The notes below the pieces were generated by a model. That model saw only the letters and a program-made list of their open reading frames with translations, ran no database searches and was not told the DNA's origin. Source: Agrococcus casei LMG 22410 (lineage in GTDB: Bacteria > Actinomycetota > Actinomycetes > Actinomycetales > Microbacteriaceae). From it: a stretch of DNA of 64,000 bases. Positions 35,335 to 52,421 of this stretch are shown piece by piece. The DNA is taken from contig NZ_FUHU01000046.1 in the NCBI RefSeq assembly GCF_900163565.1, positions 62,001 through 126,000 on the forward strand, given 5' to 3'. The position numbers were made by a program, and so were the translations under genes. Numbering within the stretch: position 1 is the first letter of the stretch; each line of letters begins with the position of its first letter.

Positions 35335-35357
35335 CCATCGCCATTTTCAGGCGCTGA

Positions 35358-35462: not shown

Positions 35463-35477
35463 GGTGGTCAGACCACC
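35463..35477. promoter_or_regulatory. Palindrome upstream of the DUF779 gene, GntR/FadR-like operator
   Basis: GGTGGTCAGACCACC is a perfect 7-1-7 palindrome whose core TGGTCAGACCA has the TGGT-n3-ACCA form of FadR-subfamily GntR operators. It lies 22 bases before the DUF779 start, over the likely promoter. The regulator is not in the window. Confidence 0.5.
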
Positions 35478-35498
35478 GATTCGCAGGGGGTGCCGACG

Positions 35499-35948: not shown

Positions 35949-36008
35949 CGCGGGTGCCTGGTGCGCATCCGCTGACCGACCAAACACCACGAGTGCAAAG
36001 GAGCACAC

Positions 36009-37532: not shown

Positions 37533-37553
37533 TAGAGACCAAAACCAGGGCGC

Positions 37554-37605
37554 AGCGGGGGCTCGTGTGGATTATCCACGCGAGCCCCCGCTCTCGCTTG
37601 TTTTT
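37554..37605. terminator. Bidirectional terminator, copy A of a repeated hairpin
   Basis: An 18-bp stem with one mismatch (arms 37554-37571, 37575-37592) followed by CTCGCTTGTTTTT. It lies between the convergent aldehyde dehydrogenase and transglycosylase genes. The same hairpin with the same flank occurs at 52369-52421. Confidence 0.85.
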
Positions 37606-37617
37606 GAGCGATCGCTA

Positions 37618-38400
37618 TCACTGAGCGTACGCGTTTGCCGCCTCGGCGACCCGGTTGTTGTAGGAGGTGGCCGAGTTGTAACCGGCAACGGCATCGATCC
37701 AGACCGCCGGATCGGTGAGGTCGCCGCCTGGGCCGCAGAGCGCAGCGGCTGCGGTGAGGGCGGCATCGTCGATCTGCTGCGGATCGAGCACGCCGTCGCC
37801 GTTGCCATCGAGCGCCAGCGCCTGCCAGGTCTCCGGGATGAACTGCATGGGGCCGATGGCGCGATCCCACTCTGCATCGCCGTCGAGCTCACCGCCGTCG
37901 GTGTCGGTAATGGCGTCGGTGCTGGAGCCGTCGAGCGCGATGCCGATAATGGCAGGATCAGCGACTCCATCGTCGCCGATCGAGCCGCCTTGGATGGTCC
38001 CGTGATGCGTCTCCACTTCGCCGATCGCGGCGAGCGTGTTCCAGCCGAGGCCGCAGGCCGGCCACATGTCGCCGGCACGAAGCGCTGCTCCCGCGTAGGC
38101 CTGCAGCGCTCGCTCCGGAATGCCGGTGGCTGCAGCCGTTGCGGCAACCCAATCGGCGTCGGCCAGCTCTGCGATGTCGTGCGATCCCCCGAGGAGCCCC
38201 GCATCGACCTCCGGCAAGTCTGCGGCTTCGGGTGCGGTCACCCCCGATGCCGCGCGAAACTCGACGTCGCCTCGATAGTCGCCCGCCGCATCCGACCCGG
38301 TTCCGTCTACGACGACCCAGATGCCGAGGCCGATGCAGATCGCGGCGAGTCCGGCCAGTGCGCCGACAGCAATGCGTCCTCCCCTGCGCTTACTGCTCAT
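37618..38400 (-). CDS. MltB-like lytic transglycosylase
   Basis: A 260-residue secreted or membrane-anchored peptidoglycan-cutting enzyme. A membrane-anchor helix is at about residues 8-32. The SLT_2 fold shows the catalytic Glu in IGEVETHHGTIQGG, then RAIGPMQFIPETWQALALDG and a closing helix with DAVAGYNSATSYNNRV. These are the standard MltB/actinobacterial transglycosylase motifs. It starts 11 bases inside the sortase gene and is the last gene of the iron-boxed subtilase operon. It may open the wall locally so that the large surface proteins can be exported and attached. Confidence 0.87.
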   Translation of the reverse strand: MSSKRRGGRIAVGALAGLAAICIGLGIWVVVDGTGSDAAGDYRGDVEFRAASGVTAPEAADLPEVDAGLLGGSHDIAELADADWVAATAAATGIPERALQAYAGAALRAGDMWPACGLGWNTLAAIGEVETHHGTIQGGSIGDDGVADPAIIGIALDGSSTDAITDTDGGELDGDAEWDRAIGPMQFIPETWQALALDGNGDGVLDPQQIDDAALTAAAALCGPGGDLTDPAVWIDAVAGYNSATSYNNRVAEAANAYAQ

Positions 38401-39025
38401 CGGCGGACTCCGGAGCGATGCGGGCGAACACCACGAGGTTCTGCTCGATGCGGTTGCCGTCAGCGTCGAACAGGCAGGTCACGAGCACGAGCCTGCCGGC
38501 GGACTCTCCCCACACTTTCGGGATGCTCGAGAGCTCAGCGCTGCCGTAGAACTCGGTGCTGACAACCTGGTAGACGACCGCGCCTTCAGCGGTCTCGACC
38601 ACGATCTCGTCGCCGGGCATGACCGTGCTCTTCAGCTGTTCGCGATCGACGAGCGGGTCGAAGGCGCCGCCGCCGTACTGCGCGGAGTGGCCGAGCAGAT
38701 ACACGGTGTCGCTCGAGTCTGCGCCGGCAAGGCCGCGATCGTCGAGCCAGGTCGCGGTGTCTGCCTCAGGGGGAGTCAGGACGCCCTCGACAGCGGGTGG
38801 CTGCACGTCGACTTCGGTCTCGAGGCCGACGACAGGCACCGTCACGCTCACCGGCTGCGCGGCAGAGACAGGATGCGCGGATGGCGCGAGCGGCGCGACC
38901 GGCACCCGCGAGGCTGCCTCGTACTGCGGCGTCGCGTTCATCGAGTTCAGGCCCAGGATGCCGACGCCGATGCCGATGGCAACGACGGCTCCGGCAGTCA
39001 CGAATCCTACGGTTCTTCCGCGCAT
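38390..39025 (-). CDS. Class F-like sortase
   Basis: A 211-residue membrane-anchored transpeptidase. After an N-terminal anchor (about residues 5-27) and a Pro/Val-rich stalk, the sortase barrel holds His113 in YLLGHSAQYGG, Cys184 in LVLVTCLFDADG and Arg192. These are the catalytic triad of sortases; the short form and VxTC spacing fit class F/E enzymes of actinobacteria. It is coupled to the subtilase gene by TGATG. A matching substrate with an LPNTG signal is encoded at 49104-51617 in the facing operon, so the two operons work together. Confidence 0.88.
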   Translation of the reverse strand: MRGRTVGFVTAGAVVAIGIGVGILGLNSMNATPQYEAASRVPVAPLAPSAHPVSAAQPVSVTVPVVGLETEVDVQPPAVEGVLTPPEADTATWLDDRGLAGADSSDTVYLLGHSAQYGGGAFDPLVDREQLKSTVMPGDEIVVETAEGAVVYQVVSTEFYGSAELSSIPKVWGESAGRLVLVTCLFDADGNRIEQNLVVFARIAPESADEQ

Positions 39026-42000
39026 CAGGCGCTCGGCTTTCTGCGCAGCGCTGCGAGCGTGATCACGGCGGCAGCAGCCAGCAGCACACCGGTGGTGCCG
39101 AGCAGCAGCCCCTGCTCGAGCGGGGTGAGCCCGTTGTCCGGTGCCGCCGAGAGGTCCTCGTCGTCGCCGGTGAGGTCGGCCTGAACATCAGGCAGCTCTG
39201 CGGCAGGCACGTCATCCTGCGGTGCGGCCTCATCTTCGCCGGCGATCTCAAGCTCGTACCAGCCAGCGTGCGCACCGTCGGCAGCCGTGAATACGAGGTA
39301 GTACGTGCCGCCCTGCAACGAGCCGATGTTGATGCGCAGCTCACCGTCGGAGTTCACGCGAATCCAGTCGACACCGAGCTTGTGCGGGTAGATGTGCAGG
39401 TAGTACCAGTCGCCTGGCTCAGCCCCCGGAATAGTCACGGCCAGCTCATCGCCGTCGAGCACTGCGGTGATGCCGCCCTGCTCTGCCAGCTTCAGCTCTG
39501 CTAGCGAGGAGAACGGAGGGCCGGGAGCCGACTCAGGCTTCGGCTGCTCCTGCGCGGTCGGAGTCTTCTGCTGGTTGGGTGCCAACTGCTGAGGCGTGCT
39601 GTCGCGGTTGCCGTTGGCGGGAGCGGGCTGCCAGGGTGAGCCACCGCTGTTGCCATTGTTCCCACCATGGCCGTTTCCGTCGCCGTCGCCGTCGCCGTCA
39701 TCGTCGGGATCGGGAGGCGTCGGCTTGATGGACTGGGGTTCGAGCACCGTCGGCGCAATGGGCTGCACCGAGTCTGGCGCCGCCCACTGCGTGCTGTTGA
39801 CGAGCACCTGCGAGACCTCGGACGACCACGTGCGGGCCCCGATCGCCGACATCGACGCGTGCAGCGACAGCAGCACCGTGCGCGATCCGCTGCCGTCAGA
39901 CACAGCGATCCCATCGCCGAGAACCGTGACCGACCCATCGTTGTTCTGCTTCGCCGCCGAGGCGAGCACCTGCGCGCCCGGCTCGTTGAAGTCTGAGAAC
40001 CAGGCGGTGAACTTCGGGCCGGTCGACTGCGAGTTCTGGCTCACGAACATCTCTGGCGTGAGCGCCGAGTTCGACAGCTGACCGGCGGCGAAGATCGGAT
40101 GCTCGGCAGTGATCACGTAGCCGGTGGCGGTCGCGTCTCGGTCGTTGGCGCCCTCGCGCACCACCGGGCTGCCGGTGTGATGGCTCAGCAGCGCGATGCC
40201 GGTCGTCTCGTTGGATCCCAGGTCGAGCCAGAGCGAGCCGACTCCGCTTGCCTGCAGCGACTGTCGCAGCGCTGCGATCGCGGCAGGGTCGGCCTGTGCG
40301 GCGGTGTCGACGATCACGGTGTCGAACTCGTCAGCATCGACCGATGCCGGAAGATCGGGGCGCTGCGTCACCGTAGTCTCGTTGGCTCGCAGCAGCTCGG
40401 CCGTGCGATCTGCGTCACCCGAGCCGATGAGCAGCACGCGCAGCTGCGGCGACAGCACGGCGTTGACCGTGGTCTGATGCGCGACCTCGACGCGAGCCGG
40501 AGCTGCCGTCGCGGTCGTCATGCCCTCGGCGCTGAACGCCACCGTGTACTGCCCGGGCGGCAGCCCCTCGAAGCGATAGGAGCCGTCGGATGCGGTGGTC
40601 GTGGACAGCGGCTGCCCGACCACGACGACGGTTGCGCCTTCGATGGGCTCGTTCGTCTCGCGGCTGACTGCGACGCCCTGGATGACACCGGTCGTCATGG
40701 CCTCGAGTTCAGCCTGCGCCTGCACGATGCGGTCGTCCGGCACCGTGACCGCCACTTCGGTCTCGTGGTAGCCGAACGCCTGGATTCGCAGCGTGTACTT
40801 GCCGGGCACCAGCGGCGCTTGGAAGGCGCCCCGCGCATCCGTCGTCCAGCTCTCGCTCACATCTGCGTAGGTGACAAGTGCGCCCTCGATGGGTGCACCT
40901 GTAGCGCTGTCGATGACGGTGCCGGAGACGCCTGAGGCGCCCAGCACCGAGGCGATCGCGTCGTGCACGTTGATGCGGCCGTGTCCGTAGCGGTCGTCCT
41001 GCTCCGCGTCGTCGCCGGCCGGATGCCAGGCGGTGTCTTCGAGCGCCTGCGCGATTTCATCGACCGAGAGTCCGGCGCGAGCCGAGGCGATCAGCGCTGC
41101 GGCTCCTGCCACGTGCGGCGTTGCCATCGACGTGCCTGTCGACTGGCCCCACCTGCCGCCTGGAATCGCGGAGTAGACAGCGGTACCCGGGGCGCTGACG
41201 TCGGGCTTCATGAAGTTCTGCGGCCAGTCGTAGCGTTCGGTCACCTCGGCGGGCCACGCGGTCTGCGCGCCGCAGGATTCGGGGTTCACCTCGTCGGCTG
41301 AGTTCGTGTTGCCTACGCCGACGGCTTCGTAGAGGTCGCCGGGGGAGGAGTTGCCGGTCGGTCCGCACGGCGCGTTGCCGATCGCGATCGCGGGGAAGAT
41401 GCCGGCGGCGCGAATATTGCGGATGATGTCGGCGAACGCCGCGCTGTGGCCGGTCGAGCCGAGCGACATGTTGATGACGTTGGCAGGCAGCCCGACGCGA
41501 TCGTCGGTGCTGTGGCCCGAGTGGGGTGCGAGCGCCCACTGCAGGCCGGCCAGGATGCGCGCGTAGGAGCCGCCGCCCGCGCCCGAGAGCACGTTGGCAG
41601 CCATCAGGCTCGCGCCGGGCGCTACACCGATCTGCACCTCGGAGGCATCGCCGCCGACGATCGTGCCGGCAACGTGCGTGCCGTGCGACCCCGGATCAGC
41701 GGGGGTTGTCGCGATGGGCAAGCCGTGCGAGTCGAAGGTGATCCAGCCGCCCGGGTAGGTCGGGTCGTTGAGGTCTGCGCCGACCATCTTGTCCGCGAGG
41801 TCGGGGTGCGAGGCGTCAACGCCGGTGTCGAGCACCGCTACCCGCACGCCTTCGCCGGTCACGCCGAAGTCGTCCCAGGCCTGCGGCGCTTCGATGCGGT
41901 CAACGCCCCAGGTGAGCGTGCCGTGGGTGGGATCGTCGACGGTCTCGCCAGGGGAGCCCGGGCCAATCACATCGGCCGTCGGCTCGACGGTGAAGTTCGG

Positions 42001-42519
42001 CACGACCTCGACGGCACCTGGCAGCGCGGCAAGGTCTGACAGCACCTCCTCTGACGGGGTCGCGCTCACGAGAATCGCCCCCGTGATCCAGAAGCGGTTG
42101 AGCACCGTCACGCGATCGTCCAGTGCGCGAAGCCCCTCTTCGACCAGGTCCCATCGCTGCTGCTCGAGCGACTGCAGTGCGGCGACGGCGGCCTCCGGGT
42201 CACCGGCGGCAGCGCTCGGAACACCGGGATCAGCGAAGCGCACCACGATCTCAACGGGGCCGGATGCCGAGTCCGGCGACGCGGTCTCGTCTGACCCAGC
42301 AACGTCAGTGAGCAGCTCCGCGTCGATATCGGCCGGGGTGTCGTCGGTGGCTGCCATGTGGGCCTCCAGGTCTGCCGATCGGCTGTCGCGCTGTGCGGTC
42401 AGCACGCCCCCGGCTCCTGCGTTGGCCCCCGTGGGCGACAGCAGGATGCCGAAGCACAGCAGCAGTGCAATGACACTGATCACCACTCGTCGAGCATGAT
42501 TCTGAGCCTGAATCAGCAC
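39025..42519 (-). CDS. Very large secreted S8 subtilisin-like protease with accessory domains
   Basis: A 1164-residue precursor. Signal peptide about 1-37, I9-like pro-region about 85-200, then the S8 domain with Asp231 (VAVLDTGVDASHPDL), His279 (DPGSHGTHVAGTIVGG) and Ser464 (STGTSMATPHVAGAAAL). Two carboxypeptidase-regulatory-type beta domains follow at about 525-690. A GATase1-like/ThuA-type region is at about 690-910 (LRVLLIGSGDADRTAELL), then a Pro/Gly/Asp linker. A beta module at about 1000-1090 is also found in the HtaA protein at 46693. A C-terminal helix ends in RRKPSA without an LPxTG motif. GTG start at 42519 with GGAGG; a DtxR box lies about 100 bases upstream. Likely degrades extracellular proteins, perhaps hemoproteins. 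Confidence 0.9.
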   Translation of the reverse strand: MLIQAQNHARRVVISVIALLLCFGILLSPTGANAGAGGVLTAQRDSRSADLEAHMAATDDTPADIDAELLTDVAGSDETASPDSASGPVEIVVRFADPGVPSAAAGDPEAAVAALQSLEQQRWDLVEEGLRALDDRVTVLNRFWITGAILVSATPSEEVLSDLAALPGAVEVVPNFTVEPTADVIGPGSPGETVDDPTHGTLTWGVDRIEAPQAWDDFGVTGEGVRVAVLDTGVDASHPDLADKMVGADLNDPTYPGGWITFDSHGLPIATTPADPGSHGTHVAGTIVGGDASEVQIGVAPGASLMAANVLSGAGGGSYARILAGLQWALAPHSGHSTDDRVGLPANVINMSLGSTGHSAAFADIIRNIRAAGIFPAIAIGNAPCGPTGNSSPGDLYEAVGVGNTNSADEVNPESCGAQTAWPAEVTERYDWPQNFMKPDVSAPGTAVYSAIPGGRWGQSTGTSMATPHVAGAAALIASARAGLSVDEIAQALEDTAWHPAGDDAEQDDRYGHGRINVHDAIASVLGASGVSGTVIDSATGAPIEGALVTYADVSESWTTDARGAFQAPLVPGKYTLRIQAFGYHETEVAVTVPDDRIVQAQAELEAMTTGVIQGVAVSRETNEPIEGATVVVVGQPLSTTTASDGSYRFEGLPPGQYTVAFSAEGMTTATAAPARVEVAHQTTVNAVLSPQLRVLLIGSGDADRTAELLRANETTVTQRPDLPASVDADEFDTVIVDTAAQADPAAIAALRQSLQASGVGSLWLDLGSNETTGIALLSHHTGSPVVREGANDRDATATGYVITAEHPIFAAGQLSNSALTPEMFVSQNSQSTGPKFTAWFSDFNEPGAQVLASAAKQNNDGSVTVLGDGIAVSDGSGSRTVLLSLHASMSAIGARTWSSEVSQVLVNSTQWAAPDSVQPIAPTVLEPQSIKPTPPDPDDDGDGDGDGNGHGGNNGNSGGSPWQPAPANGNRDSTPQQLAPNQQKTPTAQEQPKPESAPGPPFSSLAELKLAEQGGITAVLDGDELAVTIPGAEPGDWYYLHIYPHKLGVDWIRVNSDGELRINIGSLQGGTYYLVFTAADGAHAGWYELEIAGEDEAAPQDDVPAAELPDVQADLTGDDEDLSAAPDNGLTPLEQGLLLGTTGVLLAAAAVITLAALRRKPSA

Positions 42520-42568
42520 ATAACCTCCAGCTGAAAGCGTTGTTTGCGGGCACGCAGAATGCACCGGT

Positions 42569-42600
42569 TCAGTGGTATGCCGGAAGCGGCATGCCACTGA
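42569..42600 (-). promoter_or_regulatory. Hairpin in the subtilase 5' leader
   Basis: TCAGTGGTATGCCG and CGGCATGCCACTGA form a 14-bp stem with a GAAG loop and one mismatch. It is 50-81 bases upstream of the GTG start and downstream of the DtxR box, so it is likely transcribed. It could stabilise the message or control initiation. Confidence 0.45.
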
Positions 42601-42616
42601 TGGCGGTGAACCTGGT

Positions 42617-42635
42617 TTAGGTAAGGCTATCCTTA
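42617..42635 (-). promoter_or_regulatory. DtxR/IdeR-like iron box, subtilase side
   Basis: TTAGGTAAGGCTATCCTTA matches the 19-bp consensus TTAGGTTAGGCTAACCTAA at 16 positions. It lies in the divergent region, 98 bases upstream of the subtilase GTG and overlapping candidate promoter elements on that strand (TAGCCT as -10). Iron-bound DtxR here would repress the protease-sortase-transglycosylase operon. Confidence 0.75.
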
Positions 42636-42636
42636 T

Positions 42637-42665
42637 TTGAGTGCTTGCCACAAGAGCTGTAGTTA
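42637..42665 (+). promoter_or_regulatory. Candidate promoter of the hmuT operon
   Basis: TTGAGT (42637-42642) and TAGTTA (42660-42665) are spaced by 17 bases. Transcription would begin near 42672, leaving a leader of only about a dozen bases before the ATG at 42683. The DtxR box at 42663-42681 covers the -10 element and start site. Confidence 0.45.
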
Positions 42666-42681
42666 GGCTAGCCTCACCTAA
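42663..42681 (+). promoter_or_regulatory. DtxR/IdeR-like iron box, hmuT side
   Basis: TTAGGCTAGCCTCACCTAA matches the DtxR consensus TTAGGTTAGSCTAACCTAA at 17 of 19 positions. It ends one base before the hmuT ATG. This placement gives tight repression of the heme-uptake operon when iron is sufficient. Confidence 0.85.
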
Positions 42682-42682
42682 T

Positions 42683-43789
42683 ATGAAGCGTCGACCGTCC
42701 AGCGCGGCTCGCGGCAGGATCATTCCGATCCTGCTGTCTGCTGTGCTGCTTGCAACCCTCTCAGCGTGCTCCCTGTTCACCGGTGGGCCCGATGTTGCGA
42801 GCACGGATTCCGCGGATTCTCAGGGCGCAAGGTTCTTTGAGGGGCCTGACACGGCCATCCTTGACTCGACCGACATCACTCCGATCATCGATGACCCGCA
42901 GCCTGATCTGCCGGTCACCTTCACGGGGCTGGATGACGTGGACACTCAGATCACCGACACCAGCCGGATTCTTGCCCTTGATGGCTCGGGCGGGCTCGCA
43001 TCCGTCGTCTTCGGTCTGGGCTTCGGCGATCAGGTGGTCGGTCGCGACGTCACGACGGGCTTCGACTCAGCCAAGGATCTGCCTATTGTCATGGACAATC
43101 ACACACTCAATGCTGAGGCAATTTTGGCATTGCGTCCCACCCTCATCCTGACCGATTACAGCATCGGTCCGTACGACGTGCAGCTGCAGATGCGCAACGC
43201 GGGCATACCCGTGGTGTTCTTCAAGCCGGCAGAGGGCTTCGAAGACATCAGTCGGCTGATCGGTGACGTGTCAGAAGCGCTGGGCGTGCCCGAGCTCGGC
43301 AAGCAGTACCAGGCCGACTTCGACAGCCGTCTCGATGCGACGATCGCTGCGATTCAAGACATGGCGCCTGACGCAGAAGGTGACAAGGTGCGCATGGTCT
43401 TCCTCTACATGCGCGGCCAGGCAGGCGTCTACTACATGTACGGCAACAACCCCGATGGCACCACGGGCATCGCGGGCGTGCTGATCGATGCCATGGGCGG
43501 TGTCGATGTCGCCGGAGAAGAGAATTGGACCAGCGGCAACCTGACGGCAGAGGGGCTCATCAAGCTCGAGCCCGATCTCATTCTCATGCTGACGCTCGGG
43601 CTCGAGTCGGTCGGCGGCATCGACGGCCTCATGACCATCCCCGGCATCGCACAGACGCCGGCCGGGCAGCGTGAGCGCGTCGTGGACATGAGCGACTACG
43701 AGATGTTCAGCTGGGGCCCGCGCACGCCAGAGATCCTGCTCGCCCTCGCCGAGGCGATCTACCGTGATACCCCGCAGGTGCAGCCGTGA
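42683..43789 (+). CDS. hmuT: Heme ABC transporter substrate-binding lipoprotein HmuT-like
   Basis: A 368-residue lipoprotein of the cluster A-II (TroA/BtuF-type) binding proteins. The lipobox is LSAC with Cys29. The fold has SRILALDGSGGLASVVFGLG at the start, EAILALRPTLILTDY in the middle, and VGGIDGLMTIPGIAQTPAGQ near the end, as in corynebacterial HmuT. Axial heme ligands would be a His and a Tyr; DNHTLNAEA and MYGNNPD are candidates. No Shine-Dalgarno sequence precedes the ATG, and the DtxR box ends one base before it, suggesting a short-leader or leaderless message. It overlaps hmuU by GTGA. Confidence 0.9.
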   Translation: MKRRPSSAARGRIIPILLSAVLLATLSACSLFTGGPDVASTDSADSQGARFFEGPDTAILDSTDITPIIDDPQPDLPVTFTGLDDVDTQITDTSRILALDGSGGLASVVFGLGFGDQVVGRDVTTGFDSAKDLPIVMDNHTLNAEAILALRPTLILTDYSIGPYDVQLQMRNAGIPVVFFKPAEGFEDISRLIGDVSEALGVPELGKQYQADFDSRLDATIAAIQDMAPDAEGDKVRMVFLYMRGQAGVYYMYGNNPDGTTGIAGVLIDAMGGVDVAGEENWTSGNLTAEGLIKLEPDLILMLTLGLESVGGIDGLMTIPGIAQTPAGQRERVVDMSDYEMFSWGPRTPEILLALAEAIYRDTPQVQP

Positions 43790-44898
43790 CGAAACTGGCG
43801 CTGCAGGCGCCATCTCAGGCACCGCGACTGCTTGACCTGCCCACGAAGCCGGTGCAGCTGCCCGTATCGCGACGCAGAGCCGCACTGCTGCTGACGGTCA
43901 TCGGCGTGACCCTCATCATCGGCGTGCTGCTGTCGGTCGCGATCGGGCAGCTGCCAATTTCCATCCCGGAGATATTCGGCTCGTTCTGTCGCAAGCTGGG
44001 ACTCGGATGCACGAGTCCGGATGCGCTGTACATCGACGGTGCGCTGTGGGAGGTGCGGCTGCCGCGCGTCGTGTTGACCGTGCTCGTCGGCGGTGCGCTG
44101 GCGGCGGCGGGAGCTGTGATGCAGGGCATCTTCGGCAACCCTCTTGCCGACCCCGGCATCATCGGCGTCTCCTCGGGTGCGGCAGTGGGCGCAAGCCTCG
44201 CGATCGTCACCGGCATCGGGGCGCTCAGCTCGATTGCGATTCCCGGCGCGGCATTCGTCACTGCGCTGCTGACGACGTTCTTCGTCTACGCGTTCTCACG
44301 CTCGAACGGCCGCACTGAGGTCATCACCCTCATCCTCACCGGCATCGCGGTCAACGCCGTCGCCGGAGCGGGCCTGGCCTTCATGACCTTCGCGGCCGAC
44401 ACCAACCAGCGTGAGCAGATCGTGTTCTGGCAGATGGGCTCGCTCGCGGGCTCGCTGTGGTTCCAGGTCGGCGCAGTGCTGCCGCTGGTGCTTATCGGCG
44501 TGATCGCGATCATCCCCCTCATGCGACAGCTCGATCTGCTGGCCCTCGGCGATGACGCTGCCAGGCACCTGGGCGTCGACATCGAGAAGCTCCGCGTCGT
44601 CGCGATCGTGATCGTCGCCGTGCTCACCGCTTCGGCCGTGTCGTTCGCAGGCATCATCGGCTTCGTCGGGCTCGTGGTGCCGCACCTGATCCGCATGGTC
44701 GCCGGGCCCAGCCACCGCCTGCTGATCGCTGCGAGCATCCCCGGAGGAGCGGCGATGCTGACGCTCGCCGACCTCGTCGCTCGCACCGCGGTGCCGTATG
44801 CCGAGCTGCCCATCGGCATGATCACGGCCTTGATCGGCGGCCCGTTCTTCTTCTACCTGCTGCGTCGTCAGCGCAGTCGGACGGGAGGATGGGCATGA
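43786..44898 (+). CDS. hmuU: Heme ABC transporter permease HmuU-like
   Basis: A 370-residue FecCD-family permease with about ten helices. Family motifs are seen as LWEVRLPRVVLTVLVGGALA, GAVMQGIFGNPLADPGIIGV with its SSGAAVGAS extension, and SFAGIIGFVGLVVPHLIRMV. The first 40 residues are a polar arm. GTG start overlapping the hmuT stop by four bases. It forms the channel for heme handed over by HmuT and is driven by HmuV. Confidence 0.95.
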   Translation: MTKLALQAPSQAPRLLDLPTKPVQLPVSRRRAALLLTVIGVTLIIGVLLSVAIGQLPISIPEIFGSFCRKLGLGCTSPDALYIDGALWEVRLPRVVLTVLVGGALAAAGAVMQGIFGNPLADPGIIGVSSGAAVGASLAIVTGIGALSSIAIPGAAFVTALLTTFFVYAFSRSNGRTEVITLILTGIAVNAVAGAGLAFMTFAADTNQREQIVFWQMGSLAGSLWFQVGAVLPLVLIGVIAIIPLMRQLDLLALGDDAARHLGVDIEKLRVVAIVIVAVLTASAVSFAGIIGFVGLVVPHLIRMVAGPSHRLLIAASIPGGAAMLTLADLVARTAVPYAELPIGMITALIGGPFFFYLLRRQRSRTGGWA

Positions 44899-45785
44899 GT
44901 CTGCTCCTCGCACCGAAGGTCGCCCCCGAGCGACCGGCATTCGGCGACGTCGCCCTGCGAGGCACCGACGTCAGCGTCGACCTCGGCGGCCAGCGCATTG
45001 TCAGCGGCATCGACATCGAGATCCGCGCTGGCGAGATCGTCGCGCTGGTCGGCCCGAACGGCGCAGGCAAGTCGACCCTGCTGGCTGCGCTGGCGGGGGA
45101 CCTCGGATACTCGGGCTCGGTCGAGCTGGACGGCAGGCAGGCCGCGAAGTGGTCGAGTGCTGAGCTTGCACTGCGTCGCGCCGTGCTGCGACAGGACAAC
45201 ATCGTGACCTTCCCGTTCAAAGTGATCGAGATCGTCGCGATGGGGCGGGCTCCTTGGCAGCGCATCACGAGTCCGCGCGAAGACGAGCGGATCATCGGCG
45301 AGGAGCTCGTTAGAACCGACTCGCTGCAGTTCGCGGACCGCACCTTCGGTTCGCTCTCGGGCGGCGAGCGGGCCCGCGTATCGCTGGCGAGGGTGCTCGC
45401 CCAGCGCACCGGCCTGATCTTCCTCGACGAGCCGACCGCCGCACTCGACGTCAACTACCAGGAGCTCGTCCTGGCGACAGCCAGGAGGGTTGCGCGAGAG
45501 GGCGCTGCGGTCTGCATCGTGCTGCACGACCTGGCCGCAGCCGCCGCCTACGCCGACCGCGTCGTGCTGCTTTCGCACGGCTCGTGCATCGCGCACGGCA
45601 CGCCTGCCGAGGTCTTTGACAGCGAGACGCTCTCTTCGGTGTACGCGCATCCGATTCGTGTCTTGCAGCAGCCCGCAGCCGATGGCGGCACTGAGCTGCA
45701 CATCGTCCCAGAGCGCTACGCCGACACGTCGGCAGCCACGACAGCCCCCGCCGACCTCGGCGGCTCGACCCTGGAGGATCAATGA
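44895..45785 (+). CDS. hmuV: Heme ABC transporter ATPase HmuV-like
   Basis: A 296-residue ATPase. Walker A is GPNGAGKST, the signature LSGGERARVSLARVLAQRTG, Walker B LIFLDEPTAALD, switch His in VLHDLAAAAAYADR. It is closest in pattern to the heme and siderophore ATPase group (HmuV/BtuD-like). ATG at 44895 overlaps the hmuU stop by ATGA; a first ATG at 44889 is placed too near the GGAGG. The gene is followed by a 1-base overlap (TGATG) with the first surface protein. With HmuT and HmuU it completes the importer. Confidence 0.95.
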   Translation: MSLLLAPKVAPERPAFGDVALRGTDVSVDLGGQRIVSGIDIEIRAGEIVALVGPNGAGKSTLLAALAGDLGYSGSVELDGRQAAKWSSAELALRRAVLRQDNIVTFPFKVIEIVAMGRAPWQRITSPREDERIIGEELVRTDSLQFADRTFGSLSGGERARVSLARVLAQRTGLIFLDEPTAALDVNYQELVLATARRVAREGAAVCIVLHDLAAAAAYADRVVLLSHGSCIAHGTPAEVFDSETLSSVYAHPIRVLQQPAADGGTELHIVPERYADTSAATTAPADLGGSTLEDQ

Positions 45786-46696
45786 TGCGCGCATCCGCCG
45801 CACTTCGTACCGTCATCGCGGCATCGGCCGCAGCGCTGGTGCTTGCAGGCATCACGCCAGCGACCCCCGCGCAGGCTGCGGCCCAGGTCTCGGTGTCGCC
45901 GGCGCCGAGCTCGGATTCTGCCACCGAGGTCACGCTGACCGGCAGCGGATTCCAGTACCAGCCGAATGCGCCCGGCGGCGTGTACGTGTTCTTCGGGGCA
46001 GTCACCGACCCGTCTGGCGGCTCATGGAAGCCGAGCCAGGGCGGCAAGTCCGGCACGACCTTCGCGTACGCGGGCACGAGCGGCGCGCAGCTGCTGGTCG
46101 CCTTCGAGGGTGGAGACTCTGCCGAGGCAGCCAACGGCATGATCAGGGCGGACGGCAGCTGGAGCGCAACCATGCGGATTCCCGGCAGCGTCTTCGAGGC
46201 GAGCTTCGGCAACCCGCACGACGGTCAGAACCAGCAGGGCCAGCAGATCGACTGCAAGGTCGTGCAGTGCGGCATCATCACGATCGGCGCGCACGGACTC
46301 TGGAACGCCAACAACGAGTCGTTCACGCCCATCACGTTCGACGGCACGACGCCCACGCAGAACTTCGACGATGAGGCGACCGTGCTCGAAGTGCCCGGCG
46401 GTGACTCAGAAGCCGATGAGCCCGAGGCTCCGTCACCGACGGAGACGGCAGAGGCAGCAGACGTCGAAGCCGACGCAGAAGGCGACGGCGGCGGGCAGGG
46501 TGATGCCGACCAGCAGGTCGCGACTGCCGACGAGAGCGGGGCCAGCACCTGGATCTTCATCGTGCTCGGCGCAGCGGTGGCGCTGCTGCTGGGTGCGGTC
46601 GTGCTGCTCATCGTTCGCAGCCGCAAGCCGGCCGTTGCCGGCGCGAGCCAAGAGACAGCAGAGGGAACAGATCAAGAGAGAGGAGACGGGGCATGA
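45785..46696 (+). CDS. Surface protein with one neocarzinostatin-like domain
   Basis: A 303-residue protein. A signal peptide (about 1-32, ending TPAQAAAQ) is followed by one domain of about 150 residues with the pattern of the neocarzinostatin family. The opening is VSVSPAPSSDSATEVTLTGS, then DGSWSATMRIPGSVFEAS, and Cys157/Cys162 in QIDCKVVQCGIITIGAHG. An acidic linker (about 200-250) leads to one membrane helix (about 256-280) and a basic tail. Three other copies of this domain occur in the next two genes. Neocarzinostatin binds a hydrophobic chromophore, so a heme or porphyrin ligand is a reasonable guess here. GGAGG seven bases before the ATG at 45785. Confidence 0.82.
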   Translation: MRASAALRTVIAASAAALVLAGITPATPAQAAAQVSVSPAPSSDSATEVTLTGSGFQYQPNAPGGVYVFFGAVTDPSGGSWKPSQGGKSGTTFAYAGTSGAQLLVAFEGGDSAEAANGMIRADGSWSATMRIPGSVFEASFGNPHDGQNQQGQQIDCKVVQCGIITIGAHGLWNANNESFTPITFDGTTPTQNFDDEATVLEVPGGDSEADEPEAPSPTETAEAADVEADAEGDGGGQGDADQQVATADESGASTWIFIVLGAAVALLLGAVVLLIVRSRKPAVAGASQETAEGTDQERGDGA

Positions 46697-49065
46697 TCAG
46701 CAGACTCAGATCAGCAACCGTCGGGGGAGCGCTGGTGGCAGCGCTCGGCCTGGCAGGCATCGGCCTCGCAGGAACAGGCGCACAGCCGGCGGCAGCCGCC
46801 GACGGTGACGTGCAGGTGACCGACGGCACGTTCGAATGGGGCATTCGCGCATCCATTCGCAACTACCTCGAGAACTTCGACCACACCGAGGGGTCGATCT
46901 CTGCGTACAACGGCGCCACCTACACAACGGGTGACTCGGCCATCGTCTTCTCGAAAGCGAGCGGATGGGCGAACGAGTCGCAGGGGACCGCGGAGGTCTC
47001 GTTCGACGGCGAGGTCGAGATGCTCGGCTTCGGCGAATCGTGGCTCTGGTTCGACAACCTGCGTGTGCAGATCGATGGCGAGAGCGCCGACATCGTCGTC
47101 GACATGACCGAGAGCTTCAACACCAAGGAGCCGACGGCCGACGTCGTTCTGGCGTCCTACCCGGTCGATGGCGACACGATCGCTGTCGCAGACGGCTCAG
47201 TCTCGCTCAATCTCACCGACGGCCTCTTCTCGACAGCCGCGTGGGACGAGCACCTGCCGAAGCTCGGCGGGGCGCCGACCTACGGGCCCCCGAACGACAT
47301 GGTCGATGACGCATCCGCGTCGCTGGTGACCGAGGGTGAGGCAACGGATCCCGAGCCGACGGACCCTGAGCCTACAGATCCTGAGCCGACCGACCCCGAG
47401 CCCACAGACCCGGTGCCGACCCCGACCGTCGACCCGGATCCGAACGATGAGGTCGCCTACGGCGTCAGCCAGGGCGAACCGCTCAGCGGCACCGAGTCGT
47501 ACATCACCGTCACCCCGGGCTACGCGCTCGATGCCGACGGTGCGACGCTCGTGCGCATCGAGGGCTTCAACTTCAACCCCGGCCCCGCAACAGAACCGGG
47601 CACCGGCTCGGGCGGCATCTACGTCGGCTTCGGCCAGGCAGCGAACCCGGGCACCGAGGAGTGGCGCCGCAGCAAGGGCGGATTCACCGGCCCCGGTGCT
47701 GACCTCGACTACGGCAGCCCCCGATTCGTCGCCCACCAGAACAGCGCAGACGGCGAAGTCGCAGACGCCATGATGGATGCGAGCGGCTACTGGTCGTTCA
47801 CCGTCGAGGTTCCTGGCGCAGCGATTCCGTCGTTCTTCGGCGGCGGCGAGATCGACTGCCTCGCATCGCAGTGCGGCGTCTTCTCATTCGGCGCGCATGG
47901 CGTGATCAACGCCGACAACGAGGCTTACACCCCGGTCTACTTCACGGGCCAGGACGAATCGGACTGGCCGCCGCGCGGCGACTCGGATGAGCCTCCTGTC
48001 TCGGCTCCTGAGCAGCTGCCGACGCTGGCCGACCTCACTGACGCGAACCGCGGACAGGTGTCGATCCTGAACGTCGGAACGACGAATCTGACTGCTCAGG
48101 TGCCGGATGACCTGGCCGGCTCGTGGATCGGCGCCGTCGTGCTGTCTGACCCGCAGTTCGCCGGATGGGTTCGCGTTAACGACGCAGGACGCATCGACGT
48201 GCGCCTCCCCGGCGATCTCGCTGAGGGCGACCACACCCTGGCGATCGTCAACGCCGCCGGTGACGTCGTCGGCTGGGCTCCGTTCATCTACGAGCAGCCC
48301 GAGCCGATCGACGACAACGACGATGGCAAGACGACGCCTCCATCGACCGAAAAGAACCCGCACGGCGAGAGCACCGGCACCAACGAGGCTGGCGCAACGC
48401 TGACCGTGTCACCCGCGTACGAACTGGCCGACAAGAGCCAGGTCGTCACGCTGACCGGAGAGGGCTACCCGACCCAGAACGCTGCCGGCAGCAACTTCGG
48501 CGGCGCGTACATCCTGTTCGGCTGGATCGACCCCGATGCCGGCACCGACTGGGCTCCGTCGAAGGGCGGCACGACCGGCTTCACCTACGTCTACATCGAA
48601 GGCGAAGACAACCAGAGCATCGTCAGCTACCCGGGCAACACCACGACGCCGGGCTTCCCAGAGATGGATGCCGACGGCAACTGGGAGGCCGAGTACACGA
48701 TCGCAGCGTCGCAGTTCACCGCCTTCAACCAGCAGATCGACTGCTACGAGGTGCAGTGCGGTGTCATCACGATCGGTGCGCACGGCCAGGCGAATGCCGG
48801 TGCCGAGGTGTTCACGCCAGTGTTCTTCGACGCGGATGGGTCGTCGATCGACGACGACGCACGCCCCGGTGCCGCAGCGGGCGACGGTGGCACCAGCGGC
48901 AATGCCACTGGCAACACCGTCACGGGCAACGGCGTCAACACCGCCGTGCTGCAGTCGCAGAACGACGGACGCACGCTGCTGTTCGCATCCGCTCTGATCA
49001 TCGCCCTCGGAGTGCTCGGACTCTCGATGCTCTGGGCGGCTCCTCGATTCTCTTCGCGCCGGTAA
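46693..49065 (+). CDS. HtaA-domain surface protein with two neocarzinostatin-like domains
   Basis: A 790-residue secreted protein. Signal peptide 1-36. An HtaA heme-binding domain spans about 43-200 (GTFEWGIRASIRNYLENFDH and SGWANESQGTAEVSFDGEVE). A TDPEP repeat linker is at about 217-245. First neocarzinostatin-like domain about 270-417 (Cys389/394). A beta module at about 440-535 is shared with the C-terminus of the subtilase (IGAVVLSDPQFAGWVRVNDA). Second neocarzinostatin-like domain about 569-713 (Cys684/689). A C-terminal helix and RR tail anchor it to the membrane; there is no LPxTG. ATGA overlap with the previous gene. Likely captures heme at the surface and passes it to HmuT. Confidence 0.88.
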   Translation: MISRLRSATVGGALVAALGLAGIGLAGTGAQPAAAADGDVQVTDGTFEWGIRASIRNYLENFDHTEGSISAYNGATYTTGDSAIVFSKASGWANESQGTAEVSFDGEVEMLGFGESWLWFDNLRVQIDGESADIVVDMTESFNTKEPTADVVLASYPVDGDTIAVADGSVSLNLTDGLFSTAAWDEHLPKLGGAPTYGPPNDMVDDASASLVTEGEATDPEPTDPEPTDPEPTDPEPTDPVPTPTVDPDPNDEVAYGVSQGEPLSGTESYITVTPGYALDADGATLVRIEGFNFNPGPATEPGTGSGGIYVGFGQAANPGTEEWRRSKGGFTGPGADLDYGSPRFVAHQNSADGEVADAMMDASGYWSFTVEVPGAAIPSFFGGGEIDCLASQCGVFSFGAHGVINADNEAYTPVYFTGQDESDWPPRGDSDEPPVSAPEQLPTLADLTDANRGQVSILNVGTTNLTAQVPDDLAGSWIGAVVLSDPQFAGWVRVNDAGRIDVRLPGDLAEGDHTLAIVNAAGDVVGWAPFIYEQPEPIDDNDDGKTTPPSTEKNPHGESTGTNEAGATLTVSPAYELADKSQVVTLTGEGYPTQNAAGSNFGGAYILFGWIDPDAGTDWAPSKGGTTGFTYVYIEGEDNQSIVSYPGNTTTPGFPEMDADGNWEAEYTIAASQFTAFNQQIDCYEVQCGVITIGAHGQANAGAEVFTPVFFDADGSSIDDDARPGAAAGDGGTSGNATGNTVTGNGVNTAVLQSQNDGRTLLFASALIIALGVLGLSMLWAAPRFSSRR

Positions 49066-49103
49066 TCGCCGGACACTCCTCCATATAACCGAAAGGAACA
49101 CCC

Positions 49104-51617
49104 ATGTTCGAAATGGCTCAGCGGCCCCCGAGACGCACCGGGGCCAAGGCCCTGGCAGCGCTCGGCACGGCTGCAGTCATGACGGTCGGATTCGCGATGC
49201 CGGCGGCAGTCGCAGATCCGTCCGGATCATCAACCGGCACAGGCCCGAGTGGCGCACAGGTGAACGTCGCGCCCGGCGAGAACCTCGTCGCTGACGGCGA
49301 CAGCACGCTCTCGCTCACCGGCTCGGGCTTCGCCACCAGCAACAACGGCTCGTCGTTCGGCGGGGCGTACCTGCTGTTCGGCGTCGTCACGCCGAAGGAT
49401 GCCAGCGACGAACACAGCTGGACGCCTTCCGCTGGCGGTCTGATCGGGCAGAACTATGACTACGCTCCCGGTGCTGGCCTGTACCAGAGCATGGTCAGCT
49501 ACCCGGGCAACACGACCGAGCCAGGGCTCCCGACGATGGATGCCGACGGCAATTGGAGCGCAGAGCTGACGATTCCCGGCGCGGTCTTCGAGAGCCAGAT
49601 GGGCAACGAGATCGACTGCTTCGTCGACCAGTGCGGCGTCATCACCATCGGCGCTCACGGCCAGCGCAACGCCGGCGTCGAGGCATTCGTGCCCGTGACG
49701 TTCGAAGAGGAGTCGACCGCTGTCGAGACAACGGTCACCGTTGCACCGCAGCCGGTCGGTGACTTCCCGACCTACTTCCTCGGCGAGGAAGAGTCGCTCA
49801 CCGCATCCGTCTCTCCTGCTGAGGCGACCGGATCGGTCGAGTTCTTCGACGGCGACACGAGCCTCGGCACCGCTGAGGTGGCAGACGGCGAAGCAACGCT
49901 GACGACCGACGCCTGGGTCGCCGGCGGACCTCGTGCGATCACGGCACAGTTCACCAGCGACTCCGAGCAGTTCCTGGGATCAGAGAGCAGTTCGCGCAGC
50001 TACGTTGTGGTCGACCTGGCCCGCAGCATCGCAGACATCGAGCTCGGCGCGACGGTCGCAGAAGGCGAGGGTGCGCAGCTCGACTGGACCATCGCCAACA
50101 TGTACAACACGGTCGGCTACTGGTTCGACAAGGAAGCGATCGACGGCAACGTCAGCGTTCCCGAGACCGTGCCCGGTGAGCCATACGAGAACACCAACCG
50201 CCTCTTCACCTTCTCGGAAGGCATCGCGCAGCAGGATGCGGACGGCAACACGGTGATCTCGTTCGAAGGCACCGCGCGCATCACCTCGGGTTCCGCCAAC
50301 CAGTGGAACTTCAAGGATGTGCAGGTGCACGTGAACGCAGCTGGTGACGGCTACATCACCGCTGACTTCTCCGGCTACTTCACGGTCGAGGGCATGGCTG
50401 ACTATCAGTACGGCCCCGGCCGCACCACGATCGCGACCTTCAGTGGCGCAGACGTTACGGCAGACGAGAACGGCCAGGTGTCGTTCGAGATCGCTCCCAA
50501 CTGGGAGGGCGAGACCGACGAGGGCACCTGGGCAGGCGGCATCGACGCCTCGTACCCCAACGAGTTCACCGCGCAGATCTACTCGGGCGTTCGCTCGTTC
50601 TTCTACGGATCGGGCTCGTCAGGAGACCAGTACAAGAAGCCGCGTCCGTTCACGCTGTCGTACTCGACAGAAGAGGTTGCGATCGCACCTTCGATCGTCA
50701 CCGATCCGGCAGACGTCGTGGCCGCCCCGGGCGAGGATGTCGAGCTGTCGGCTGAGGTCGCGGGCTCGCCTGAGCCCACAGTGCAATGGCAGCAGCTGAC
50801 TGACGGCGAGTGGGTCGACGTCGACGGCGCAACGTCGACGACCTACGCATTCACCGCAGCTGCAGAGCAGGACGGCGCGCAGTTCCGCATCGTGGCGACC
50901 AACGAGGCCGGCTCGGCCGAGTCGGCTGCCGCAACGGTCACGGTCACCTCGGCAGCTGTTGAGGCTGCTCCAGAAGTGATCTCGCACCCCGAGGACGTCA
51001 CCGCGAAGCTCGGTGAGCGCGTGACGCTCGAGACCATCGTGACCGGCAGCCCGGCACCGGTTGCTCAGTGGCAGATGCTTGCAGCAGGTGCAGACGAGTG
51101 GGTCAACGTCGGCGAAGAGCTGCGTCTCGACCAGGCCGACACCGCACGCGGCGCCCAGCCGACTGCAGACGGTCTGCCGCAGTACATCGCAACGCTGTCG
51201 TTCACGGTCGACGAGTCGGTCGCAGACGCTCAGTTCCGCATTTCGCTCGTGAACGAGTTCGGCGAGGCTGTGTCGGATGCGGCAACCCTGACGGTCTCGG
51301 ATCTGCCGGTCGACCCGACCGATCCTGTTGACCCGACTGACCCTGTTGACCCGACCGATCCTGTCGACCCGACGGACCCTGTCGACCCGACGGATCCGGT
51401 TGACCCGACCGACCCTGTGGAGCCCACTGACCCGGTGGACCCAGGCAACCCGGGTGAGTCAGGCGGTCCGACCGACGCGCCCGCTCCCACCTCACCGGAT
51501 GCTGACGGCAAGCTGCCGAACACCGGTGTGGCACCTGGCCTGCTCGCCATCGCGCTCGCAGGAATGATGCTGGTCGGCGGAGGCGTGCTCTTCGCACGTC
51601 GCGGTCGCACCCAGTAG
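49104..51617 (+). CDS. LPxTG-anchored HtaA-like, neocarzinostatin-like and Ig-like surface protein
   Basis: An 837-residue wall protein. Signal peptide about 1-37. A neocarzinostatin-like domain covers about 48-200 (Cys172/177 in EIDCFVDQCGVITIGAHGQR). A Big-type Ig-like domain is at about 205-300 and an HtaA-like domain at about 315-525 (LDWTIANMYNTVGYWFDKEA). Two more Ig-like domains (about 535-740) precede a VDPTDP repeat spacer (about 738-775). The LPNTG sorting signal is at 804-808, followed by a membrane helix and RRGRTQ. The substrate fits the sortase in the facing operon. AAAGGAA precedes the ATG. It probably projects heme-binding domains beyond the peptidoglycan. Confidence 0.9.
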   Translation: MFEMAQRPPRRTGAKALAALGTAAVMTVGFAMPAAVADPSGSSTGTGPSGAQVNVAPGENLVADGDSTLSLTGSGFATSNNGSSFGGAYLLFGVVTPKDASDEHSWTPSAGGLIGQNYDYAPGAGLYQSMVSYPGNTTEPGLPTMDADGNWSAELTIPGAVFESQMGNEIDCFVDQCGVITIGAHGQRNAGVEAFVPVTFEEESTAVETTVTVAPQPVGDFPTYFLGEEESLTASVSPAEATGSVEFFDGDTSLGTAEVADGEATLTTDAWVAGGPRAITAQFTSDSEQFLGSESSSRSYVVVDLARSIADIELGATVAEGEGAQLDWTIANMYNTVGYWFDKEAIDGNVSVPETVPGEPYENTNRLFTFSEGIAQQDADGNTVISFEGTARITSGSANQWNFKDVQVHVNAAGDGYITADFSGYFTVEGMADYQYGPGRTTIATFSGADVTADENGQVSFEIAPNWEGETDEGTWAGGIDASYPNEFTAQIYSGVRSFFYGSGSSGDQYKKPRPFTLSYSTEEVAIAPSIVTDPADVVAAPGEDVELSAEVAGSPEPTVQWQQLTDGEWVDVDGATSTTYAFTAAAEQDGAQFRIVATNEAGSAESAAATVTVTSAAVEAAPEVISHPEDVTAKLGERVTLETIVTGSPAPVAQWQMLAAGADEWVNVGEELRLDQADTARGAQPTADGLPQYIATLSFTVDESVADAQFRISLVNEFGEAVSDAATLTVSDLPVDPTDPVDPTDPVDPTDPVDPTDPVDPTDPVDPTDPVEPTDPVDPGNPGESGGPTDAPAPTSPDADGKLPNTGVAPGLLAIALAGMMLVGGGVLFARRGRTQ

Positions 51618-51624
51618 CCATTCG

Positions 51625-51653
51625 GGGCCCGGTCGCTGCACGCGGCCGGGCCC
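51625..51653 (+). terminator. GC-rich hairpin between the LPxTG gene and hmuO
   Basis: A 12-bp stem with one mismatch (arms 51625-51636, 51642-51653) and a 5-base loop, just after the stop codon. Only TGTCCAT follows, so termination is probably partial. It would lower heme oxygenase expression relative to the upstream genes. Confidence 0.5.
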
Positions 51654-51690
51654 TGTCCATCCGCAGAATTCTTCTTGCACAGGAGTCCTC

Positions 51691-52341
51691 ATGACTGACA
51701 CCACAACACTCTCGGCCCGACTTCGCGCTGTCTCCTTCGGCGGCCACCGGCAGCCCGACGACGATCAGACCGACGGTCGCTACGGCGAACGCTACCTGCA
51801 CGGCGGCCTGACTGGCGCGCAGGTTGCGGCCCAGGCTGCGCTGCACTTCTTCGTCTACGAGGCGATCGAGGCGAAGCTGGCTGAGCACCTCGAGCGAGAC
51901 CCCGACTTTGCGTTTGCGTTTCCCGAGCTGATTCGGCTGCCCGCGATCGAGCGCGACCTCGAGCACTGGCTGGGGGCAGACTGGCGGTCGCAGATCGAGC
52001 CGACGCCGACGACCAAACGGTATGTCGAGCGGATCCAGGAGGTCGGCGACCAGCCTCACCTGTTCGTTGCGCACCACTACACGCGGTATCTCGCCGACCT
52101 CTCGGGCGGTCAGATGATCGCGGCCATGCACCGCGAAGCATACGGGCTCAGCGACCGCAAGGGTGCCGAGTTCTACGACTTCCCTGAGATCGAGAGCATT
52201 CCGGAGTTCAAGAACGAGTACCGGGCCGCCCTCGACGCGGCCGGCTTCTCTGACGAGCAGATTCGCGAGCTCGAAGACGAGGTGCGCCTCGCCTACGACT
52301 TCAACAATCAGGCCGGGCAGGAGCTGAACTCGGTGCTCTGA
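51691..52341 (+). CDS. hmuO: Biliverdin-producing heme oxygenase
   Basis: A 216-residue heme oxygenase that opens heme to biliverdin, CO and iron in the cytoplasm. The proximal ligand is His19 (SFGGHRQ), and the distal helix VAHHYTRYLADLSGGQMIAA contains the conserved Gly-Gly kink and catalytic Asp. The FYDFPEIESIPEFKNEYRAA region and the C-terminal DFNNQ match HmuO-type enzymes. CAGGAG precedes the ATG. As the last gene of the heme-uptake operon it releases iron from imported heme. The first 35 residues are more acidic and divergent than usual. Confidence 0.94.
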   Translation: MTDTTTLSARLRAVSFGGHRQPDDDQTDGRYGERYLHGGLTGAQVAAQAALHFFVYEAIEAKLAEHLERDPDFAFAFPELIRLPAIERDLEHWLGADWRSQIEPTPTTKRYVERIQEVGDQPHLFVAHHYTRYLADLSGGQMIAAMHREAYGLSDRKGAEFYDFPEIESIPEFKNEYRAALDAAGFSDEQIRELEDEVRLAYDFNNQAGQELNSVL

Positions 52342-52368: not shown

Positions 52369-52421
52369 GAGTGGGGGCTCGTGTGGATAATCCACTCGGA
52401 CCCCCGCTCTTGCGTGTTTTT
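52369..52421 (+). terminator. Terminator after hmuO, copy B of a repeated hairpin
   Basis: A 20-base stem with a few mismatches (arms 52369-52388, 52390-52409) followed by TTGCGTGTTTTT. It shares nearly all of its sequence and its downstream flank TGTTTTTGAGCG with the hairpin at 37554-37605, so the heme island is bracketed by two copies. Confidence 0.8.

Follow-up and report, generated by a model that had tools for sequence, protein, structure and literature searches.

Two divergent, iron-boxed operons of Agrococcus casei combine a heme importer and neocarzinostatin-like surface proteins with a sortase and a subtilase

The 2.79-Mb draft genome of Agrococcus casei LMG 22410 carries a locus in which genes for heme import lie back to back with genes for a subtilase and a sortase. 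Bases 62001-126000 of one contig were analysed; this stretch of 64 kb is referred to as the window, and positions are counted within it. The locus consists of two divergent operons whose likely start codons are 163 bp apart. The left operon (minus strand) runs from the subtilase through a class F-like sortase to a lytic transglycosylase. The right operon (plus strand) encodes HmuT, HmuU and HmuV, followed by three surface proteins of 304, 790 and 837 amino acids (aa) with neocarzinostatin (NCS)-like domains and by the heme oxygenase HmuO. From left to right, the features are:

37540..37606, no strand: left-end palindromic, terminator-like element; 33-nt inverted repeat, 23-bp core common to the right end
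37618..38400, minus: lytic transglycosylase-like protein, 260 aa; PF13406 (SLT_2) E 9.5e-6, N-terminal membrane helix
38390..39025, minus: class F-like sortase, 211 aa; NF033748 E 5.6e-9, under the cut-off
39025..42519, minus: subtilase, 1164 aa; PF00082 E 5.5e-44, triad aligned to subtilisin E
42617..42635, plus: DtxR/IdeR-type iron box 1; 16/19 consensus matches
42663..42681, plus: DtxR/IdeR-type iron box 2; 17/19 consensus matches
42683..43789, plus: HmuT heme-binding lipoprotein; best PDB match 5az3, E 5e-57
43786..44898, plus: HmuU permease; PF01032 (FecCD permease) E 2e-92
44889..45785, plus: HmuV ATPase; NF010068 (heme ABC ATPase) 297.2 bits, cut-off 261
45782..46696, plus: 304-aa protein with signal peptide, one NCS-like domain (fold model) and C-terminal membrane helix
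46693..49065, plus: 790-aa protein with one HtaA (CR) domain (PF04213, 58.2 bits), two NCS-like domains and a membrane helix
49104..51617, plus: 837-aa protein with NCS-like, Ig-like and HbpA-like domains and an LPNTG signal (PF00746; fold; profile)
51691..52341, plus: HmuO heme oxygenase; PF01126 E 8.9e-46, PDB 1iw0 E 3.5e-24
52373..52405, no strand: right-end palindromic element, second copy; 23-bp core common to the left end

An earlier note on this DNA had described two divergent operons with two DtxR-like boxes between them, and genes, order and boxes are all as it stated. The three genes that it placed in the left operon were recovered through family matches. HmuTUV, the surface proteins and HmuO were likewise found in the right operon, where the phrase "three multi-domain surface proteins" proved generous, as the 304-aa protein has one recognisable domain and a helix. 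The subtilase probably starts at 42519. For HmuT, a start at the first GTG (42641) was rejected in favour of 42683. PutA (likely start 52458) was rejected as an operon member: it forms the right flank of the locus and was matched in all 24 genus genomes searched.

Both iron boxes lie in the gap between the operons. They were scored against the 19-bp DtxR/IdeR box consensus, with a scan threshold of 14/19; sites similar to this consensus are listed in PMC524172. Apart from one site overlapping box 2, the 64-kb window contained no further site of at least 14/19, and when the 163-bp gap was shuffled 2000 times with its dinucleotide content kept, no site of at least 16/19 arose. Box 2 ends one base ahead of the HmuT ATG and leaves no space for a ribosome-binding site, and hence the hmuT message may be leaderless. 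A site of at least 14/19 within -400..+60 of hmuT was found in 55 of 75 hmuT loci (window included), 23 having two or more, and 60 such sites lay elsewhere in ~1.46 Mb. All 11 subtilase loci, i.e. the window and ten related loci of other genomes described below (L109-L118), have at least one box near hmuT. In L110, L111 and L112, the three loci scanned, the gene after the sortase encodes a DtxR-family repressor (PF02742, E 1.7e-21, 1.5e-28 and 3.5e-26, respectively). The window has the transglycosylase in this slot; the DtxR dimerisation domain (Fe_dep_repr_C) has four matches elsewhere in the host genome. Judged from these sites, both operons would be regulated by iron via a DtxR-type repressor.

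The importer carries the marks of a heme transporter. We take PDB entry 5az3 to be HmuT of Corynebacterium glutamicum. In an alignment with this entry and two mutants, HmuT residues H140, Y242 and R244 match His141, Tyr240 and Arg242 by our own mapping. The heme ligands of C. glutamicum HmuT are named in PMC4926363. Heme ligands with their arginine partner in HmuT, an HmuV scoring above the NF010068 cut-off and a permease of the FecCD family were thus all found. Entry 1iw0, matched by HmuO, is presumably the C. diphtheriae enzyme. Where the contig is long enough, as in eight of the related loci, HmuO follows the surface genes in every case; L110 and L114 are cut by contig ends. The HemB and HemE families were matched in the host genome, so heme brought in from outside probably serves as a source of iron rather than as a cofactor that the cell lacks. 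On contig C27 (L067, about 7955-14307), the genome has another heme locus, of conventional make-up, with HmuO, a protein of four HtaA domains and HmuTUV. It has its own 16/19 iron box, and the four HtaA domains retain the axial Tyr and the helper His.

The NCS-like domains occur in four copies, one each in the 304-aa and 837-aa proteins and two in the 790-aa protein. The 161-residue domain of the 304-aa protein, encoded at 45872-46354, was modelled with a predicted local distance difference test score (pLDDT) of 89.1 and a predicted template modelling score (pTM) of 0.87. In a Foldseek comparison of this model with the PDB, 11 of the 13 best matches were named enediyne apoproteins or engineered neocarzinostatin (best E 4.1e-6), and two of the 13, from entry 4jw3, are presumably neocarzinostatin. 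All 13 had a probability of 1.00 and 11 of them an E of at most 0.001; the best reached a template modelling (TM) score of 0.74 on the shorter chain. The same model had no match at E <=0.001 in a viral fold library, and the NCS profile matched no PDB sequence up to E 1. Among 47 aligned NCS-like domains, 46 match NF040680 and 23 match PF00960 (up to E 1). The window domain has no PF00960 match and scores 22.4 bits with NF040680 (cut-off 86); it thus has the fold and lies below the family cut-offs. Invariant in the 47 domains are Cys128, Cys133, His141, Tyr38, Trp52, Asn145 and Glu149 (numbering of the 161-residue model). The histidine sits in a GAHG motif and, by the CxxxxC register, presumably belongs to the loop lining the neocarzinostatin chromophore cleft.

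The neocarzinostatin fold is otherwise known for carrying enediyne antitumour antibiotics. The enediyne chromoproteins (neocarzinostatin, macromomycin, C-1027 and kedarcidin) share their fold with the domains of the locus, which differ in the invariant GAHG, in being joined to a membrane helix or a sorting signal and in adjoining a heme importer. The NCS-like domains may bind heme. We regard this partner of hmuTUV as the most original element of the locus. Among the open papers searched, partly by title, none was found that links neocarzinostatin to HtaA or describes an NCS-like partner of hmuTUV, nor one that joins Leucobacter, heme and sortase. The available portion of a paper on Actinoplanes sortases mentions one neocarzinostatin-like protein and does not contain the word heme.

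Two further domains resemble parts of the C. diphtheriae heme system. The CR domain of the 790-aa protein scores well above the PF04213 cut-off of 24 bits (58.2), and its helix 1 (WGIRASIRNY) has both the Ser and the axial Tyr. The roles of these two residues and of the helper His are described in PMC12494546. In the 837-aa protein, a domain at 50007-50672 (about residues 302-523; pLDDT 90.4, pTM 0.89) had HbpA of C. diphtheriae as its first-ranking Foldseek match (E 3.7e-6), followed by HtaA CR domains. With a profile of this domain, HbpA was also the best PDB sequence (E 8.9e-4), the next following at 0.46. Pfam HtaA (up to E 0.1) matches 11 of 32 aligned HbpA-like domains, the window domain not among them. 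After iteration, the profile had drawn in ordinary HtaA domains as well; for this reason the total of 309 matches was not used, and the hhalign match of the profile to HtaA (99.8%) may stem from shared members. According to PMC12494546, HbpA is a hemoglobin receptor. Because the 837-aa domain is closest to HbpA, a hemoprotein target is plausible on sequence and model. In L112, L115, L116, L117 and L118, hmuO is followed by a gene for one more protein with an HbpA-like domain.

The ligand might also be another tetrapyrrole, such as a coproporphyrin or its zinc complex, with the NCS-like domain as its specific carrier. We consider this improbable. A Leucobacter sp. (ASN212) that depends on exogenous heme or coproporphyrin-type growth factors, as stated in PMC6868719, would fit such a carrier. 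So would nine Bifidobacterium loci (L129, L133, L136, L162, L167, L170, L171, L172 and L180) that have hmuTUV, NCS-like and HtaA domains and in which neither HmuO within the locus nor a DtxR-type box of at least 14/19 near hmuT was found; these loci perhaps handle another ligand, or give heme another fate. However, HmuO is present in each subtilase locus with sufficient contig, the HmuT ligands are retained, HmuV exceeds the cut-off for heme transporters, iron boxes are in place and the host has enzymes of tetrapyrrole synthesis, all of which argues for heme.

The distribution of the locus was analysed in several genome sets. In a family sample of 120 genomes, HmuT was detected at E <=1e-15 in 50 genomes at 54 places. 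An NCS-like gene followed hmuV at 13 of these 54 loci, a sortase was present at three and a subtilase at two (the window and L. chinensis). Public genomes were scanned with the NCS alignment, and the best 80 of 205 relatives were examined; this set is biased, as it was chosen by similarity to NCS domains, most from hmu loci. The NCS-like gene lies beside hmu genes in 79 of the 80 loci: in 76 the gene immediately before it on the same strand is hmuV (under 120 bits in two of them), in three it is hmuT with hmuUV within 5 kb, and one locus starts at a contig end. A separate phylum sample of 296 genomes, with at most 13 candidates scored per genome, yielded matches in the host and two others, both beside hmuTUV. 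Ten of the 80 NCS loci, namely L109-L118, have a subtilase of more than 150 bits divergent from hmuT; they belong to Aeromicrobium sp. PE09-221, eight Leucobacter and one Actinomycetales metagenome-assembled genome (MAG). The other 70, in which the region upstream of hmuT is visible for 2.5 kb in 62 and for 5 kb in 59, showed no divergent subtilase above 150 bits and no sortase match; a 71-bit subtilase match 7.8 kb away in L177 was not counted. In a tree of 85 HmuT rows, drawn from 74 of the 80 NCS loci, nine family loci, the window and the C27 copy, the 11 subtilase loci form one clade (100/100), with the window between Aeromicrobium and the Leucobacter-MAG group; a long-branch warning concerned other parts of the tree. 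As Aeromicrobium (Nocardioidaceae) falls within this clade, the tree suggests transfer between lineages.

In the host's own genus, HmuT was matched in 4 of 24 genomes (own included; one very weak). Six genus loci around PutA (L205-L210) were compared; the junction can be judged only in L209, of genome G139, which alone shares the left flank of the window. There, the aldehyde dehydrogenase of this flank (92% identity over the 415 residues present out of 507) is followed by PutA after about 0.28 kb, and in the window the two are separated by about 14.9 kb, measured to the aligned PutA start. Within this pair of genomes the block 37618-52341 is one presence/absence unit; the evidence is thin, and gain and loss are indistinguishable.

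These comparisons bear on the earlier proposal that both operons form one system. The divergent subtilase-hmuTUV-NCS-HtaA arrangement recurs in ten other genomes with a box near hmuT in 11 of 11 loci, a DtxR-family gene follows the sortase in all three Leucobacter loci tested, and the whole block is absent from one comparable congener, which bears the proposal out. Conservation of gene order, which the note had made a test of its view, holds across genera and fails within the genus (24 genomes searched). Co-occurrence of subtilase, sortase and NCS-like genes with hmuTUV was confirmed for a subset, with the subtilase in 10 of 80 NCS loci and the sortase in eight of these ten. Alternatively, the left operon could be a cell-surface operon without relation to the heme genes, the two having no more than the intergenic region in common, a view suggested by the subtilase standing beside hmuT in only 2 of 54 family hmuT loci and by relatives of the sortase without nearby hmu matches (e.g. 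L053 and L065). We regard it as very improbable, because the divergent pairing is kept in ten further loci at a subtilase identity of about 38-50%, the hmuT genes of these loci form one clade, and G139 lacks the block as a whole.

The sortase belongs to the sortase superfamily by its GHS and VTC motifs, which hold the active-site His and Cys. With the class F model NF033748 it scores 35.8 bits (cut-off 166) and so stays below the curated cut-off for this class. Membership of PF04203 was rejected, as the window sortase has no Pfam match; its orthologs in L118 and L115 pass PF04203, and that of L109 has no Pfam match up to 0.001. No PDB sequence was matched up to E 1. An arginine near the domain end, which we take to be a class F feature, is not conserved at its position in the sortases of L001-L020 and L109-L118, window included. 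Orthologs 39-52% identical to the window sortase were found in 8 of the 10 related loci. A candidate substrate is the 837-aa protein, in which LPNTG is followed by a membrane helix and a basic tail at the C-terminus (PF00746, 23.4 bits, cut-off 20). Seven sortase loci have a complete large NCS protein before hmuO, and in six (window, L109, L111, L112, L113 and L118) it ends in L[PA]xTG. The locus sortase would be a candidate for sorting the 837-aa protein. This sortase was absent from the 70 other NCS loci, 21 of which encode one or more L[PA]xTG-type signals. In the Leucobacter loci L115, L116 and L117, S-layer homology (SLH)-type ends replace the LPXTG signal on the large surface proteins (Pfam run on L115 and L116); L116 and L117 each have an LAKTG signal on another protein. 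A divergent sortase also adjoins an hmuTUV-HtaA locus without an NCS domain (L054, genome G085), and sortase and heme genes may thus have met more than once.

The third gene of the left operon encodes a transglycosylase that is just above the SLT_2 cut-off (25.5 bits, cut-off 24.3). A phmmer search at 1e-10 detected no ortholog of it in the left operons of the 10 related loci (L118 ends 0.6 kb past the sortase). One ortholog was located at the far right of L116, and others lie close to hmuTUV-NCS in L062 and L063. The transglycosylase, which the earlier note had made part of the system, was therefore rejected as a core part and retained as a recurrent neighbour.

The subtilase consists of an S8 catalytic domain, two carboxypeptidase-regulatory-like domains and a C-terminal membrane helix, read from the sequence, without an LPXTG motif. 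Its catalytic D, H and S all line up with the triad of subtilisin E. Compared with the window copy, the subtilases of the 10 related loci have about 38-50% identity, and nine of these loci have the triad motifs in a single frame. We infer that the enzyme cuts hemoproteins. It might instead be a maturation or shedding protease that trims or releases the hemophores of the locus, the remainder serving heme uptake. This would agree with its best NCBIfam match, a mycosin, i.e. a secretion-associated protease (under the cut-off), and with the kinship between its C-terminal domain and one domain of the 790-aa protein (E 6.8e-5 between the latter and the L051 subtilase), by which both may act at one place. 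According to PMC12494546, C. diphtheriae secretes part of its HtaA and ChtA. However, among the 70 other NCS loci, the 62 in which 2.5 kb or more can be seen upstream of hmuT have no such subtilase above 150 bits there, and 65 of the 70 have HtaA-type domains. Since HtaA-bearing NCS loci lack the subtilase upstream, such surface proteins in general do not need it, and we judge a maturation role unlikely, even though it deserves more weight than the other alternatives.

The best reading of the locus is an Isd-like hemoprotein-utilisation system made of HtaA, HbpA and NCS parts. That it is an iron-repressed hemoprotein-utilisation locus, gained or lost as a block, we consider fairly probable. 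At low iron, a DtxR-type repressor would leave both boxes and both operons would be made. The sortase would attach the 837-aa protein to the wall through its LPNTG signal, and there the HbpA-like domain of this protein would hold a hemoprotein; the subtilase, facing outward on its C-terminal membrane helix, would cut the captured protein. Freed heme would pass to the CR domain of the 790-aa protein and to the NCS-like domains that all three surface proteins carry, and from these on to the 304-aa membrane protein and HmuT; HmuUV would import it, and HmuO would open it. A bolder proposal is that the NCS fold is a heme or porphyrin carrier, that NCS-like domains encoded directly after hmuV throughout Actinobacteria hold heme with the invariant His of GAHG and relay it to HmuT, the enediyne chromoproteins being offshoots of this fold family, and that the fold works here in an Isd-like machine with a sortase of its own and a hemoprotein-cutting subtilase; this we put forward tentatively, leaning slightly against it. 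The locus type gives NCS-like proteins a concrete, testable job.

Several observations weigh against the hemoprotein-utilisation system. L116 and L117 have no sortase, and L115 retains one yet its large surface protein ends in SLH domains. The host genome encodes another sortase on contig C31, its sole PF04203 match, and holds six LPXTG-type matches; because of these, the locus sortase need not serve the 837-aa protein. Subtilase frames are broken in two related loci, L110 (the same as L051) and L116, either naturally or through sequencing error. A window-type HmuT was found in none of the 23 other genus genomes, the best match having 41% identity. In all 8 distinct loci whose CR domain was read, among them the window, Phe stands in place of the helper His (L114 is truncated, and L115 and L116 were not caught by the motif). 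In sequence, the match to HbpA is weak, with E 8.9e-4 and with 0.01 for the best single domain; the axial Tyr of CR domains is missing from the HbpA-like domain, whose partner is not necessarily hemoglobin.

Among the heme systems of actinobacteria, those of Corynebacterium are the well-described ones. The C. diphtheriae system (htaA-hmuTUV, HbpA and HmuO) has HmuTUV, HmuO, the CR axial Tyr, an HbpA-like domain and DtxR-type boxes in common with the window locus, which adds a subtilase, a sortase, NCS-like domains and one LPXTG-type signal and has the CR helper His replaced. According to PMC12494546, the heme genes of C. diphtheriae are spread over five loci. In contrast, receptor-like protein, hemophore and oxygenase stand together in the one window locus. 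Staphylococcus aureus Isd and the srtB-type loci of Listeria and Bacillus are iron-regulated and have their own sortase, wall receptors, importer and oxygenase (PMC5026354). The window locus likewise has its own sortase, putative surface receptors, importer, oxygenase and predicted iron boxes; it differs in CR, HbpA and NCS in place of NEAT domains, a class F-like in place of a class B sortase, boxes of the DtxR type and the extra subtilase. No NEAT domain was detected in a Pfam scan of the 10 locus proteins up to E 0.1. With neither NEAT domains nor a class B sortase, the locus would work like Isd yet be no member of it, and we assign it to the actinobacterial hmu system as a variant. To this system it adds a sortase and an anchored protease, i.e. 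the staphylococcal Isd design built from unrelated folds. Protease and hemophore jointly take heme from hemoproteins in Porphyromonas gingivalis, with its gingipains and HmuY. Gingipains are cysteine proteases of a Gram-negative cell, and these proteins are unrelated to those of the window locus.

Both ends of the island carry a palindromic element with the core GGGGGCTCGTGTGGATWATCCAC. Allowing up to three mismatches, the pattern gave ten strand matches at seven sites in the genome, five of them besides the island ends; a reversed control gave none. The pattern is exact at the two island ends only, partly by construction, as it was written from both copies. The intergenic stretch of G139 contains no GTGGATNATCCAC. 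Within the element, TGTGGATAA resembles what we take to be a DnaA box. The element was possibly the route of insertion.

To the left of the island, a catabolic run on the plus strand (28365-37532) encodes an amidohydrolase, a thiamine-diphosphate enzyme, an arginase-family enzyme, a 2-hydroxyacid dehydrogenase, a 533-aa protein (no Pfam match) and the aldehyde dehydrogenase.

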